A DNA stretch of 40,019 bases, taken from NCBI GenBank assembly GCA_021372395.1, contig JAJFUP010000254.1:1-40019 (forward strand). The letters are read 5' to 3'. The notes under the pieces were generated by a model. It searched no databases. It saw only the letters and a program-made list of their open reading frames with translations, and was not told the origin of the DNA. This document shows, piece after piece, positions 2,525-21,209 of the stretch. The translations under genes were made by a program, and so were the position numbers. Source of the stretch: Deltaproteobacteria bacterium (GTDB lineage Bacteria > Desulfobacterota > Desulfomonilia > UBA1062). Within the stretch, counting starts at the first letter, position 1. The number at the start of each line of letters is the position of its first letter.

Positions 2525-2570
2525 CGCCGGGGATTGAGCCCGAGCTTTCAGCTCGGCTCAACCCCCGGCG
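2525..2570 (+). terminator. Strong hairpin downstream of the peptidase gene
   Basis: A near-perfect stem-loop starts 8 bases after the stop: CGCCGGGG pairs with CCCCGGCG, TTGAG with CTCAA and CCGAGC with GCTCGG around a TTTCA loop. No T-run follows, so it may act as an RNA 3'-end stabiliser or a non-canonical terminator. It touches the left end of the MITE-like element at 2569. Confidence 0.5.
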
Positions 2571-2930
2571 GGGTCAGGCCTCAACATGTGACAACCTCTG
2601 CACCGCTTGCCCGTGATCAGGTGAGCAATCATGAGATCTCCTAACGCGACGAGCGAAAAGTGCAGCACGTCATTCCTGCGAAGCTCTTTTCATCGCACGG
2701 GGCGAGAAATCGTTTCATGCCATTCCCTCGGAAGAGGGGATCCAGTCTTTTTGAGAACGTTGAGTTTCCATGTCGCAGAGTATCCCCACGCACGGGGGAA
2801 CGGCGTGTCATTCAATCCGTCAAATTGAGTGAAATCCAGCGTATCGCCCGGCAAGGGGGGAACGGCAGCGACAACAGGAGAAGTTCTGCTGTCCCCTCGA
2901 GCATATGTCACATGTTGAGGCCTGACCCCG
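2569..2930. mobile_element. MITE-like element A (25-bp perfect terminal inverted repeats)
   Basis: A 362-base element bounded by perfect 25-base inverted repeats at 2569-2593 and 2906-2930; the outer 18 bases read CGGGGTCAGGCCTCAACA. The same ends bound element B at 9717-9895. The interior has no transposase or credible gene, and contains degenerate copies of the R1 palindrome core near 2668 and 2717. It is probably non-autonomous and moved in trans; family membership is inference. It accounts for most of the 523-base gap between the peptidase and ligase genes. Confidence 0.75.
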
Positions 2931-6744: not shown

Positions 6745-6971
6745 GAGGCTCATCCCGAGGTGTTTGCAAAAGTACCGGGACGTCATTCCCGCGGAAGCGG
6801 GAATCCATTCAATTCAATGGCTTCTGGACCCCCGCTTCCGCGGGGGTGACGGGGTATGTATGCTTCTGTGCGCCAATTGATGTTCGGATCCCCGCTTCCG
6901 CAGGGGTGGCGGTCGTTTTAGAGCTTTGTAAATGGCTTATCCTGCCTGTATTTTCTGATCCAAACTCTCCA
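6745..6971. other. Intergenic region between convergent acyltransferase and kinase genes
   Basis: This is the rest of a 442-base non-coding gap. Apart from the tandem repeat it contains an R1 repeat copy (6762-6938). I see no gene and no classical terminator with a T-run. Confidence 0.5.
6762..6938. repeat. Dispersed palindromic repeat, copy 3 (family R1, with an extra arm)
   Basis: The arm GTCATTCCCGCGGAAGCGGG (about 6783) is followed by the inverse-type arm GACCCCCGCTTCCGCGGGGG (about 6827). A third arm, ATCCCCGCTTCCGCAGGGGT, lies near 6888. The outer ends are GTTTGCAAAAG (about 6762) and GAGCTTTGTAAATGGCTT (6921-6938). The extra arm suggests an internal duplication or two merged copies. 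Confidence 0.65.
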
Positions 6972-7721: not shown

Positions 7722-9716
7722 TCATCCCGCGACAGCCAGGTGGATCCGCTTGAGCTTCTTGATCTCGTCCCGGTAGCCGGCTGCTTCCTCGAATCGCAGG
7801 TCCTTGGCCGCCGCCAGCATCTTTTTCTCCAGTTCCTTGATCGTCTCCTTGATCTTGCGGACTTCCACCATGCCCATGGAGGTTTTGACCTCGGCGGAAA
7901 TCTCGGGGTAGTCCCGCTCGTAGATGGAGGCGAGGATGTCCCGGATGTTCTTCTGGATGCTCCGGGGCGTGATGTGGTGCTCACGGTTGTACGCCTCCTG
8001 CTTCTTCCTCCTCCTCATGGTCTCGGAGTATGCCTTTTCAATGGAAGCGGTCTTCACGTCGGCATACATGATGACCTTGCCGTCGATGTTCCGCGCCGCC
8101 CTGCCTGCGGTCTGGATGAGGGAGCGCTCCGAGCGGAGGAACCCTTCCTTGTCGGCATCGAGGATGGCTACGAGCGTCACCTCCGGGATGTCGAGGCCTT
8201 CCCTCAGGAGGTTGATGCCCACGAGCACGTCGAAGAGCCCTTCCCGCAGGCCCTTGACGATCTCGATGCGTTCAAGGGTGTCGATGTCCGAGTGCATGTA
8301 CTTCACCTTGATGTCCAGGCCCTGGAAGTAGTTCGAGAGCTCCTCGGCCATCCTCTTGGTGAGCGTGGTCACCAGCACGCGGCCGCCCTTTTCGACGGTC
8401 TTCCTGATCTCCCGGTACAGATCGTCCACCTGGCCCGTGGCCGGCCTGATCTCGATGAGGGGGTCCAGCAGGCCCGTGGGCCTCACCACCTGCTCCGCGA
8501 CCCTTCCCTTGGCCTGCTTCATTTCGTAGTCCCCCGGGGTCGCGGACACGTAGACGATGGCGTTCACGACGCGGTTGAACTCGTCGAACCGCAAGGGACG
8601 GTTGTCCAGGGCGGAGGGAAGCCGGAACCCGTATTCTACGAGCGTCGACTTTCTCGAGTGGTCGCCGCGGTACATGCCGCCCAGCTGGGGCACGCCCACG
8701 TGCGACTCGTCGAGAAAGACCAACGCGTTCTTGGACAGGTAGTCCATGAGGGTAGGGGGCGGATCGCCCGGCCGGCGGCCGGTGAGATGCCGGGAGTAGT
8801 TCTCGATCCCCTTGCACACGCCGGTTTCCATGAGCAGCTCGAGATCGTAGTTCGTCCTCTCCTCGATCCGCTGGGCCTCGATGAGCCTATTGTTTGCCCT
8901 GAAAAAATCTACCCGTTCCCTGAGCTCTGCCCTGATGGAGTCGATGGCACCGAGAAGAACGGATCTCGGGGTCACGTAATGGGAGGCAGGGTAGATGGGG
9001 ACATGGTTTATTTTCTTGAGCTTCCTGTTGCGGATCGTGTCTATCTGCCAGAGGGCCTCGATCTCGTCGCCCATGAGCTCGATGCGGATGGCGGTGTCCT
9101 CTTCGTGCACCGGAAAGATCTCGACGACATCCCCCCTGACCCGGAAGGAGCCCCGGTGAAAGTCGTAATCGCCCCGCTCGTACTGGATCTCCACGAGCTT
9201 CTTCAGGATGTCTTCCCTGCTGAAGGTCCTGCCCTCCTCCAGGTAGAGGAGCATGCCCTGGTAGGCCTCGGGGGACCCCAGGCCGTAGATGCAGGAGACA
9301 GAGGCCACGATGACGCAGTCCTCCCGCTCGAACAGCGCCCGGGTAGCCCGGTGCCTGAGCTTGTCGATGTCCTCGTTGATGGACGAATCCTTCTCGATGA
9401 AGAGGTCCCGGGACGGCACGTAGGCCTCGGGCTGGTAGTAGTCGTAGTAGCTCACGAAGTACTCCACGGCATTCTCCGGGAAGAGCTCCCGGAACTCGCC
9501 GTAGAGCTGGGCAGCCAGGATCTTGTTCGGCGCGATCACCAGGGCGGGACGGTTCAGACGCTCCATCACGCATGCCATGGTGAAGGTCTTACCCGACCCG
9601 GTCACCCCGAGGAGGACCTGATCGCGGACGCCCTGCTCGATGCCCTTGCACAGGGTGTCGATGGCCTGTGGCTGGTCACCCTGGGGGGAAAACGGTGAGA
9701 CGAGCTTGAATCCCAT
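7722..9716 (-). CDS. uvrB: Excinuclease ABC subunit B
   Basis: A 664-residue DNA-damage recognition helicase of nucleotide excision repair that loads on damaged DNA with UvrA and then recruits UvrC. It has N-terminal [11 protein letters not shown], Walker A GVTGSGKT at residues 37-44, the [12 protein letters not shown] beta-hairpin region, the [14 protein letters not shown] Walker B region, helicase motifs through QTAGRAARN, and a C-terminal UVR domain ([19 protein letters not shown]-like helices). The N-terminus matches the family, so the ATG at 9716 is right. It is remarkable that this codon follows a MITE-like element directly; the only Shine-Dalgarno-like GAGG, 10 bases upstream, lies inside that element's inverted repeat. 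Confidence 0.98.
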
Positions 9717-9895
9717 CGGGGTCAGGCCTCAACATTTGACATGGGGTGTCTCATTCCACGCCGGACAGCCGGAACAGAGGGTGCCGGATAGCGAGGCATG
9801 AACCCGCATGTACGTCAGCCCGTTTCGGAACAAAGATCGTCGAAGGCTGGGGATTTTTCTCATGAGAGATTGTCAAATGTTGAGGCCTGACCCCG
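9717..9895. mobile_element. MITE-like element B, filling the cysS-uvrB gap
   Basis: A 179-base element with perfect 25-base inverted ends at 9717-9741 and 9871-9895. The ends match element A at all but one position, where the base change is mirrored in both arms (CATTTGACA here, CATGTGACA in A). It starts at base -1 of uvrB, and only two bases separate it from the cysS stop. No gene lies inside. Confidence 0.78.
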
Positions 9896-9897
9896 GC

Positions 9898-11331
9898 CTA
9901 GATTTTCTCCCACGCCGTGCCCTCGGGTGAGTCCTTGAGCTGGATGCCCTTTGCCTTGAGCGTGTCCCTGATCTCGTCGGCCCTCTTGAAATCCTTGGTC
10001 TTCCTGGCCAGGTTCCGCTCTTCGATAAGCCCCTGGATCTCCTGCTCGGACAGGCCGGTGACCTGGACGCTGCCCCGTTTCATGGCCTCCAGGAACTCCC
10101 CGGGCTCTTCACCGAAGACCCCGAAGATGTCGGTGACCTCTCCCATGGACGCCTTCAGGGCGGACTGGTCTTTCCTGGATATTTTCGGGTCCTGATCGAG
10201 GGCCCGGTTGATCTCCGTGGTGAGGTCGTGGAGGCAGGCAATGGCCTTGGCCGTGTTGAAGTCGTCGCACATGGCCTCGTCGAAATCCCTGCTGAAGGTG
10301 CCGACCAGGCCCTCGAGCCTCGACTCCCTGTCTTCGGCAGGGGAGTGGTTCACCCTGTCCAGCATCTCGTAGAAACGCACGAGCGCCTGCCGGGCGGAGT
10401 TCACCGCCTCGTTGGAGAAATCGATGGGGCTCCGGTAATGCCTCGAGAGGAGGAGGAGCCGCAAGATCTCGGGATGCACGTCCTTCGTGAGCTCGCGGAT
10501 GGTCATGAAGTTGCCGAGAGACTTGCTCATCTTCTCGCCGTCGATGGTGACGAAGCCGTTGTGGATCCAGTAGCGCACGAACTCGGCGCCGAGTGCGGCC
10601 TCGGCCTGGGCCGTCTCGTTCTCGTGGTGGGGGAAGATGAGGTCCCTCCCGCCGCCGTGGATGTCGAGGGTCGCTCCGAGGAAGTGGGTGCTCATGGCGG
10701 AGCACTCGATGTGCCAGCCCGGCCTGCCCTTGGACCAGGGGCTGTCCCACCAGGGCTCCCCTTCCTTGCTCCGCTTCCAGAGCGCGAAGTCGAGGGGGTC
10801 TCTCTTGAGATCCTCGATGTCGACCCTTGCGCCGGCGATCATCTCCTCGGTCCTGCGGCCGCTGAGCTTTCCATAGCCCCTGAACCGGGAGACGCTGAAG
10901 TACACGCTGCCGTCGTCTGCCCGGTAGGCGTACTCCTTCTCCTCCAGGATCCTCACCATGTCGATGATGTGGGAGATGTGGTCGGTGGCCTTGGGCTCGA
11001 TGTCCGCGGGCCTCACCTTGAGGATGTCCATGTCGGTCCGGTATTCTTCGATGTAGCGGTCCGCCACGTCGCGGTACGAGGTGCCCAGGCTGTTCGCCCT
11101 GGCGATGATCTTGTCGTCGATGTCGGTGAAGTTCCGCACGAAGGTGAGGTCGTAGCCCTTCTTCCGGAGAAACCGGGCAATGACATCGAAGACGATGAGG
11201 GACCGTGCATGGCCGATGTGGCACATGTCGTAGACCGTGACCCCGCAGGCATACATGCCCACCTTGTTGGCGTGCAGGGGTTCAAAGGCCTTTTTCTTCT
11301 TCAGAGGGGTGTTGTAGACGTTCAATGTCAT
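9898..11331 (-). CDS. cysS: Cysteinyl-tRNA synthetase
   Basis: A 477-residue class I aminoacyl-tRNA synthetase charging tRNA-Cys in the cytoplasm. It shows the zinc and adenylate site YACGVTVYD (Cys29), the HIGH motif as CHIGHAR (residues 37-43), GRPGWHIECSAMS and HGGGRDLIFPHHENE for the zinc site, and KMSKSLGNF for the KMSKS loop. The anticodon-binding C-terminal helical domain is complete. AAGGAG lies about 10 bases before the ATG. It sits in the carD-ispD-ispF-cysS-uvrB run, 249 bases after ispF, so it may have an additional promoter of its own. Nothing appears truncated. Confidence 0.98.
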   Translation of the reverse strand: MTLNVYNTPLKKKKAFEPLHANKVGMYACGVTVYDMCHIGHARSLIVFDVIARFLRKKGYDLTFVRNFTDIDDKIIARANSLGTSYRDVADRYIEEYRTDMDILKVRPADIEPKATDHISHIIDMVRILEEKEYAYRADDGSVYFSVSRFRGYGKLSGRRTEEMIAGARVDIEDLKRDPLDFALWKRSKEGEPWWDSPWSKGRPGWHIECSAMSTHFLGATLDIHGGGRDLIFPHHENETAQAEAALGAEFVRYWIHNGFVTIDGEKMSKSLGNFMTIRELTKDVHPEILRLLLLSRHYRSPIDFSNEAVNSARQALVRFYEMLDRVNHSPAEDRESRLEGLVGTFSRDFDEAMCDDFNTAKAIACLHDLTTEINRALDQDPKISRKDQSALKASMGEVTDIFGVFGEEPGEFLEAMKRGSVQVTGLSEQEIQGLIEERNLARKTKDFKRADEIRDTLKAKGIQLKDSPEGTAWEKI

Positions 11332-18241: not shown

Positions 18242-18987
18242 TAGAGATTCACTCCCTGAGCAAGTCCTTCAAAGGGCTCTCGGTGCTCGACGACATCGAC
18301 CTCACCGTCCCCGAGGGCAAGATCACGGTGATCATAGGCCCGTCGGGCACCGGGAAGAGCGTCCTGCTGAAGCACATCCTCGGCCTCATCAAGCCCGATT
18401 CCGGGAAGATCATCTTCCACGGCAACGACATCGCTGCCATGGACGAGGTGGCGCTCATGGGGATACGCAAGCATTTCGGGGTGTGCTTCCAGGATGCCGC
18501 ACTGTTCGACTCCATGACCGTGGGCGAGAACGTGGGGTTTCCCTTTGCCATGCACACCGACCTCGCAAATGAACAGATAGCGGTGCAGGTGGCTTCGCTC
18601 CTCAGGGAGGTGGGCCTCACCGGCATCGAGGACAAGATGCCGTCGCAGCTCTCCGGAGGCATGAGGAAGCGGGTGGGGCTCGCCCGGGCACTCGCCCTGA
18701 GCCCCGAGGTCATCCTGTTCGATGAGCCCACCACCGGACTCGACCCGGTCATGACCACGGCCATCAACACGCTCATCAAAGAGGTGCAGGGGAAGACACA
18801 CGCCACGAGCCTCGTGATCAGCCACGACATCCACGGGGCCTTTGCACTCGCCGATTACATGGCCATGCTCTTCGGGGGCCGCATCGTTCATCAGGGAACT
18901 CCCGAAGAGTTCAGGGACACCGAAGACCCGCTGGTCCGGCAGTTCATCGAGGGGCGGCTGCAGGGGCCCATCAATCCTATACAGTAG
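18238..18987 (+). CDS. mlaF: ABC transporter ATPase, MlaF-like
   Basis: A 249-residue cytoplasmic ATPase of the phospholipid-trafficking (Mla/Ttg2) family. Walker A is GPSGTGKSVLLKHIL, the Q-loop is VCFQDAALFDSMTVGENV, the signature is LSGGMRKRVGLARAL, Walker B is VILFDEPTTGLDP, and the H-loop is VISHDI. SGGMRKR and the C-terminal GTPEEF/DPLVRQFIEG are typical of MlaF. GGGAGG lies 4 bases before the ATG. The permease (MlaE) and MCE protein (MlaD) normally beside it are absent here. The stop codon TAG is the first part of an R1-type end sequence. Confidence 0.85.
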   Translation: MIEIHSLSKSFKGLSVLDDIDLTVPEGKITVIIGPSGTGKSVLLKHILGLIKPDSGKIIFHGNDIAAMDEVALMGIRKHFGVCFQDAALFDSMTVGENVGFPFAMHTDLANEQIAVQVASLLREVGLTGIEDKMPSQLSGGMRKRVGLARALALSPEVILFDEPTTGLDPVMTTAINTLIKEVQGKTHATSLVISHDIHGAFALADYMAMLFGGRIVHQGTPEEFRDTEDPLVRQFIEGRLQGPINPIQ

Positions 18988-19083
18988 AGCCATGTGCAAA
19001 ACTCGAGATGAAGACCGCGATATTGTCGGCCATGCCCTTATCAGTCTTATACACCATACAGTAGAGCCAATTGCAAAACTCGA
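18979..19083 (+). repeat. Pair of 28-base direct repeats at the mlaF 3' end
   Basis: ATACAGTAGAGCC followed by TGCAAAACTCGA occurs at 18979-19006 (including the mlaF stop) and again at 19056-19083, 77 bases apart, with two mismatches. Each copy contains the R1 outer end GAGCC..TGCAAAACTC. Duplication of the gene end, or adjacent insertion of repeat elements, would explain it. Confidence 0.65.
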
Positions 19084-21087: not shown

Positions 21088-21209
21088 GGAGCCAATTGCA
21101 GAAATACCGGAACGTCATTCCCTCGAAAGAGGGAATCCTGTCTTCTCGGGTCGTTCTGGACCCTCGTTTCGCGGGGGTGACAGTCTGGATGAGTTTTGCA
21201 ATTATCTCC
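21088..21209. repeat. Dispersed palindromic repeat, copy 5 (most complete R1 copy)
   Basis: The left end GGAGCCAATTGCAGAAAT and the right end GAGTTTTGCAATTATCTCC are inverted copies. Inside, GTCATTCCCTCGAAAGAGGG and GACCCTCGTTTCGCGGGGGT form a long imperfect pair of palindromic arms. No gene lies within. This copy best defines the family outline. Confidence 0.7.

Follow-up and report, generated by a model that had tools for sequence, protein, structure and literature searches.

In the genome of a Deltaproteobacteria bacterium, the space between cysS and uvrB is taken up almost entirely by a long inverted repeat that reaches the uvrB start codon. The cysS gene is essential, and uvrB, a gene for DNA repair, is usually not. 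An earlier note on this DNA had described the repeat as a MITE-like element and had suggested that its insertion replaced or created the ribosome-binding site of uvrB. The questions raised by the locus are what kind of element this is, how it came to fit the gap, and what it would do to the translation of uvrB. Throughout, the window is the whole stretch of 40,019 nucleotides that was analysed.

The inverted repeat occupies all but two bases of the cysS-uvrB gap

Read from the sequence of the minus strand, the end of cysS (...AAA ATC TAG) is followed by GC, the 179-base element and the uvrB ATG, so that the element occupies all but two of the 181 nt between the two genes (Table 1). The inverted repeat is perfect (25/25 complementary). 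Every coordinate that the earlier note had given for this junction proved right, including the end of a 25-base repeat just before the uvrB ATG and the position of the sole Shine-Dalgarno (SD)-like tetramer of uvrB, GAGG, inside the arm. The outermost C:G pair, shared by no more than about half of the other copies, is a weak or fortuitous part of the arm; the part common to all copies begins GGGG (9718) or GGG, which leaves a conserved arm of 23-24 bp. GAGG provides the best anti-SD pairing upstream of uvrB (-5.6 kcal/mol; median for genes of the window, -6.2 kcal/mol). Both genes match their protein profiles above the cut-off, and the uvrB start codon is well supported because uvrB of the relatives begins at the equivalent residue (MGFKLVS or MAYKLVS).

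Table 1 Features of the cysS-uvrB junction and the second copy of the element in the window
Feature	Position	Strand	Remark
cysS, 477 aa	9898..11331	-	CysS, TIGR00435
cysS stop codon, TAG	9898..9900	-	
Spare bases, GC	9896..9897	-	between cysS stop codon and element
Inserted element, non-autonomous TIRtron/REPIN-like hairpin, 179 bp	9717..9895		conserved core 9718-9894
5' arm (sense of the cysS-uvrB mRNA)	9871..9895	-	begins 2 nt past the cysS stop codon
Interior, 129 nt	9742..9870	-	unique in its own genome and 23 family genomes
3' arm	9717..9741	-	last base directly precedes the uvrB ATG
GAGG, SD-like tetramer in the 3' arm	9727..9730	-	10 nt before the uvrB ATG
uvrB start codon, ATG	9714..9716	-	directly adjoins the element end at 9717
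uvrB, 664 aa	7722..9716	-	UvrB, TIGR00631
Second copy, 25-bp arms (G variant), 312-nt interior	2569..2930		interior contains another palindromic repeat

A search of the window with Rfam at the gathering score gave no structured RNA at the element, the sole match being a tRNA at 833-905, and no intrinsic terminator for the cysS-uvrB direction was found on the minus strand. A target-site duplication, a trait of classical DDE MITEs, was not found either: no direct repeat is common to CCCAT and GCCTAG, the sequences that border the element.

The arms belong to a family associated with a RAYT gene

In the whole genome (2.99 Mb in 306 contigs), 22 arm-like sites were found, compared with none for a control pattern that was reversed but not complemented. 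Together with the folding of the element strand, which is 7.7 SD better than that of dinucleotide shuffles, this excludes chance as the source of the arm pairing. The genome holds nine inverted arm pairs, a further pair that brackets a RAYT gene on contig C235, and single arms, one on C83 and a degenerate one on C180. The interiors of the pairs measure 11-17 nt in six cases, 129 nt in the cysS-uvrB copy, 312 nt in the second copy of the window and 334 nt in a copy on C35. The cysS-uvrB copy ends in GGGG/CCCC, and some other copies have GGG or AGGG. The only palindrome within the arm is AGGCCT, which is lost in the GGTCTC variants of the relatives. A scan of GTDB for the exact CC-variant of the arm gave only four loci in three genomes, namely Deltaproteobacteria LM3-B1m, Ca. 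Scalindua arabica and Ca. Aerophobetes. The arm sequence was not found in the literature searched.

The second copy in the window lies between genes for a papain-family peptidase and an AMP-binding enzyme, and the palindrome in its interior is of the CATTCCCTCGGAAGAGGGGATCCAG type. Two further sets of repeats were noted in the window. Another family of REP-like sequences (TCATTCCCGCGGAAGCGGGA..., together with GGACCCCCGC...GGGGGTGA) is found at 586-631, 2694-2739, 6757-6802 and 21089-21134, and a 28-bp direct repeat (93%), ATACAGTAGAGCCATGTGCAAAACTCGA, is found at 18979-19006 and 19056-19083, 77 nt apart.

On C235 (1453-2524), the same arms flank the gene for an intact protein of 310 aa that matches Y1_Tnp (PF01797; 7.6e-14) and, above cut-off, the REP-associated tyrosine transposase model NF047646, and that carries the HUH motif as HYH in ...ENHYHLML.... 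Orthologues with 53-57% identity are bracketed by the same arms in G017, G021 and G007; in G020 the orthologue, within the same range of identity, stands at a contig end and one arm is seen. The arms have diverged around the more distant RAYTs (35-41%) of G016, G010 and G008, and both the arms and a close RAYT are missing from G001-G004, which share the genus of the analysed genome. G014 has the arms and no close RAYT homologue, which has perhaps been lost or was not assembled. Because orthologous RAYTs carry the same arms, distant ones carry diverged arms and the same-genus genomes lacking a close homologue lack the arms, the cysS-uvrB element is assigned on sequence grounds to the RAYT-type family, as a probable non-autonomous relative of the RAYT/TIRYT unit. 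Its arms correspond to the ends of the C235 transposase unit, and it was presumably moved in trans by the C235 enzyme. The term MITE-like thus remains apt in the sense of a non-autonomous insertion with terminal inverted repeats, and a candidate transposase gene flanked by these arms is present in the genome.

Among described systems, the TIR motif and the absence of a GTAG tag place the element closer to the 'TIRtron' branch (PMC3733652) than to classical REPs or REPINs (PMC3116915, PMC8266576). TIRtrons are formed by TIR-associated tyrosine transposases (TIRYT) with the TIR motif GGGGWSAS (PMC3733652), and the cysS-uvrB arm GGGGTCAG fits this motif at both ends. Further shared features are the long terminal inverted repeats flanking a RAYT-like gene (C235, and also G017, G021 and G007), a RAYT-type Y1 transposase with a HUH motif, and TIRs that are also found without the gene, as dimers or clusters across the genome (PMC3733652). 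Differences are the host group, which is absent from the text of PMC3733652 (no 'Geobacter' or 'Desulf'), and the unusually long interiors of a few copies here (129, 312 and 334 nt). With REPINs, or REP doublets, the element shares two inverted repeats with a spacer that form a long hairpin, and an extragenic, RAYT-associated, non-autonomous nature (PMC3116915). In contrast to REPINs and GTAG-REPs, its arms do not carry GTAG (or CGTC) as a tag at their foot, and neither arm forms a palindromic REP by itself; the spacer length also varies widely here, unlike that of REPINs.

The cysS-uvrB gap is variable in relatives

The uvrB locus was compared with that of 19 other genomes of the family. In 16 of these genomes cysS lies next to uvrB, and in the remaining three cysS was not seen within the examined flank. 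The element is absent from the junctions of the relatives and the spacing is not kept. The gap is 7-12 nt in eight relatives, and in four relatives of the same genus it measures 45, 110, 112 and 234 nt, with sequence unrelated to the element, which probably landed in the gap after the split from the other compared species of its genus. In genus g4, three genomes have gaps of 7-10 nt and four have gaps of 325-538 nt. These long g4 gaps carry GGGGACGGGTTCACATT repeats, present 5-63 times per genome, and the gap of G002 consists of dispersed repeats with 16 other matches in that genome (repeat-bearing gaps of G002 and the four g4 genomes: loci L034, L041, L042, L044 and L045); the gap sequence of G004 is not repeated. 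At least three different repeat families have thus entered the cysS-uvrB gap independently.

The eight tightly spaced relatives mostly lack a clear SD sequence before uvrB. Their pairing energies range from 0.2 to -3.9 kcal/mol, with one at -6.2 kcal/mol (random median, -3.0 kcal/mol), and since most are not clearly better than random DNA there was probably no strong SD sequence for an insertion to replace, which does not support the replacement suggested in the earlier note. A normal ribosome-binding site, which that note had set as a point against its own reading, does occur in the same-genus genomes G003 (GGGAG) and G004 (AAGGG-like) and so counts in part against that reading. Tight gaps poor in SD sequences fit translation of uvrB by ribosomes finishing cysS, that is, translational coupling.

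Copies of the element usually lie away from start codons

Placement was surveyed for 126 arm clusters in eight genomes, with genes called by a simple dicodon caller whose start choices are approximate, and with orthologous copies counted more than once. The surveyed elements are extragenic, with a median distance of 45 nt on stop-facing and 127.5 nt on start-facing sides, and between genes on the same strand they lie nearer to the upstream stop (Wilcoxon p = 6e-6), in agreement with the published REP pattern (PMC3733652). None of the other 84 start-facing flanks comes as near to a start codon as that of the uvrB copy; the next is that of a G008 copy (L224:1971-2070), 9 nt from the start of a tetrapyrrole methylase/HemD fusion gene, and copies at 15-20 nt follow. 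In g4, orthologous copies stop about 20 nt short of a gene, the AGGAGG of which remains outside the element. Overlap with a ribosome-binding site is rare among the relatives of the element. The exact fit in the cysS-uvrB gap is in part expected if the earlier spacer was very short, because an insertion that spared both genes could only go into that spacer.

The G008 hairpin before the methylase/HemD fusion gene is a second element that covers a ribosome-binding region. In the genus of G014 and G020 many copies lie inside larger composite repeats; hairpins of genus g4 are often nested in larger palindromic repeats whose ends resemble TAGTATTACAGTGGTAATCAGTCATGCGATCCTG / CACTGTAGTGTTA (G020 L131, L142 and L145, at about position 2000).

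The arms were probably inserted as one unit

The 129-nt interior exceeds the 3-46 nt usual in most copies. It has no second copy in its own genome or in 23 other family genomes, where only an 18-base match at chance level was seen in relatives, and no similarity to the other long interiors. An origin as an internal-deletion MITE of the RAYT unit was rejected, as the interior resembles neither the RAYT gene nor the unit as a whole. A phage or plasmid origin was also rejected: the element is unmatched in both collections, and IMG/VR holds no such hairpin.

The interior could be older intergenic DNA lying between two arms. In a rival reading, two single arms were inserted separately around existing intergenic DNA and the 'element' is not one mobile unit. 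Single arms do occur, as on C83 and C180, the long interiors of two other copies hold unrelated repeats, and the interior weakly resembles the G001 gap (p of about 0.025, uncorrected for the four tests made). However, the two arms of the uvrB gap are identical even at the variable base (T/T; G/G or A/A in other pairs), and two independent insertions exactly at a stop and a start are unlikely. In the survey of 126 clusters, arms differed by 0.21 bases within a pair and by 0.52 between pairs, which favours pairs that were moved or maintained as units. Separate insertion is accordingly improbable, and we infer that the element was inserted as one unit.

The element is predicted to insulate uvrB from cysS translation

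In the cysS-uvrB mRNA, the arms would pair as a stem of 24-25 bp running from 2 nt past the cysS stop right up to the uvrB ATG. To open the start region of uvrB (-18 to +12) would, by prediction, cost 36.4 kcal/mol with the element and 12.7 kcal/mol when it is removed and the flanks are joined. Such a stem would keep terminating ribosomes from uvrB and mask its weak SD sequence, and the element would act as a translational insulator, with uvrB expression lowered or uncoupled from cysS translation. A stable structure that directly follows a stop codon is reported to inhibit re-initiation (PMC7518266), and translational coupling weakens with distance (PMC12548453). The ribosome termination structure of the first of these studies is likewise a stable mRNA stem with no gap to the stop codon, and it has been proposed to prevent re-initiation; it differs in that the stem here is an inserted mobile element, the other end of which covers the ribosome-binding site of the next gene. 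Because GAGG lies in the stem, the modelled opening cost is high and a post-stop structure has a published effect, insulation with a lower uvrB output from the cysS transcript is our best guess. Overall, it is quite probable that a non-autonomous RAYT/TIRYT copy was inserted in the cysS-uvrB gap and insulates uvrB or lowers its translation.

The main alternative is a promoter in the interior, giving transcripts that lack the 5' arm, so that the freed GAGG is a working SD sequence and the element itself supplies the expression signals of uvrB. With a spacing of 10 and -5.6 kcal/mol, GAGG ranks third among the uvrB genes of 20 family genomes, the predicted opening cost drops to 13-16 kcal/mol for transcripts starting inside the element, and four g4 genomes hold, by eye, a conserved promoter-like TTGACA in the gap near uvrB. 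Against this, a sigma-70 scan of 9600-10000, which may not cover the promoters of this phylum, was negative, and other copies do not share the interior. An internal promoter is thus considered unlikely. The suggestion that the insertion created a ribosome-binding site is possible by sequence and doubtful for the joint mRNA, in which GAGG would be locked in the stem.

A broader reading, in which the RAYT-type hairpin is the entire translation-initiation region of uvrB and output is set by opening of the stem, either through an internal transcript start or through coupling across its base, has little probability. Least probable is that the hairpin loops itself out and coupling is kept, with ribosomes crossing the base of the stem: the closed stem would leave the cysS stop and the uvrB ATG about 2-4 nt apart (TAG-GC-[stem]-ATG), resembling the 7-12 nt gaps of eight relatives, but in published work re-initiation is inhibited by stable structure behind a stop codon (PMC7518266), and no comparable case was found among the surveyed copies.

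Significance

As an element, the repeat is ordinary and belongs to a class already described; its precise placement is real. The locus offers a clear natural case of a RAYT-type palindrome that takes up the entire spacer between two genes whose pairing is conserved and which lie close together in many relatives, and it adds a pairing of RAYT and arms from a poorly sampled bacterial family. Such elements usually lie near stop codons and away from starts, and the uvrB copy would serve as a natural experiment on the insulation or silencing of a downstream gene.
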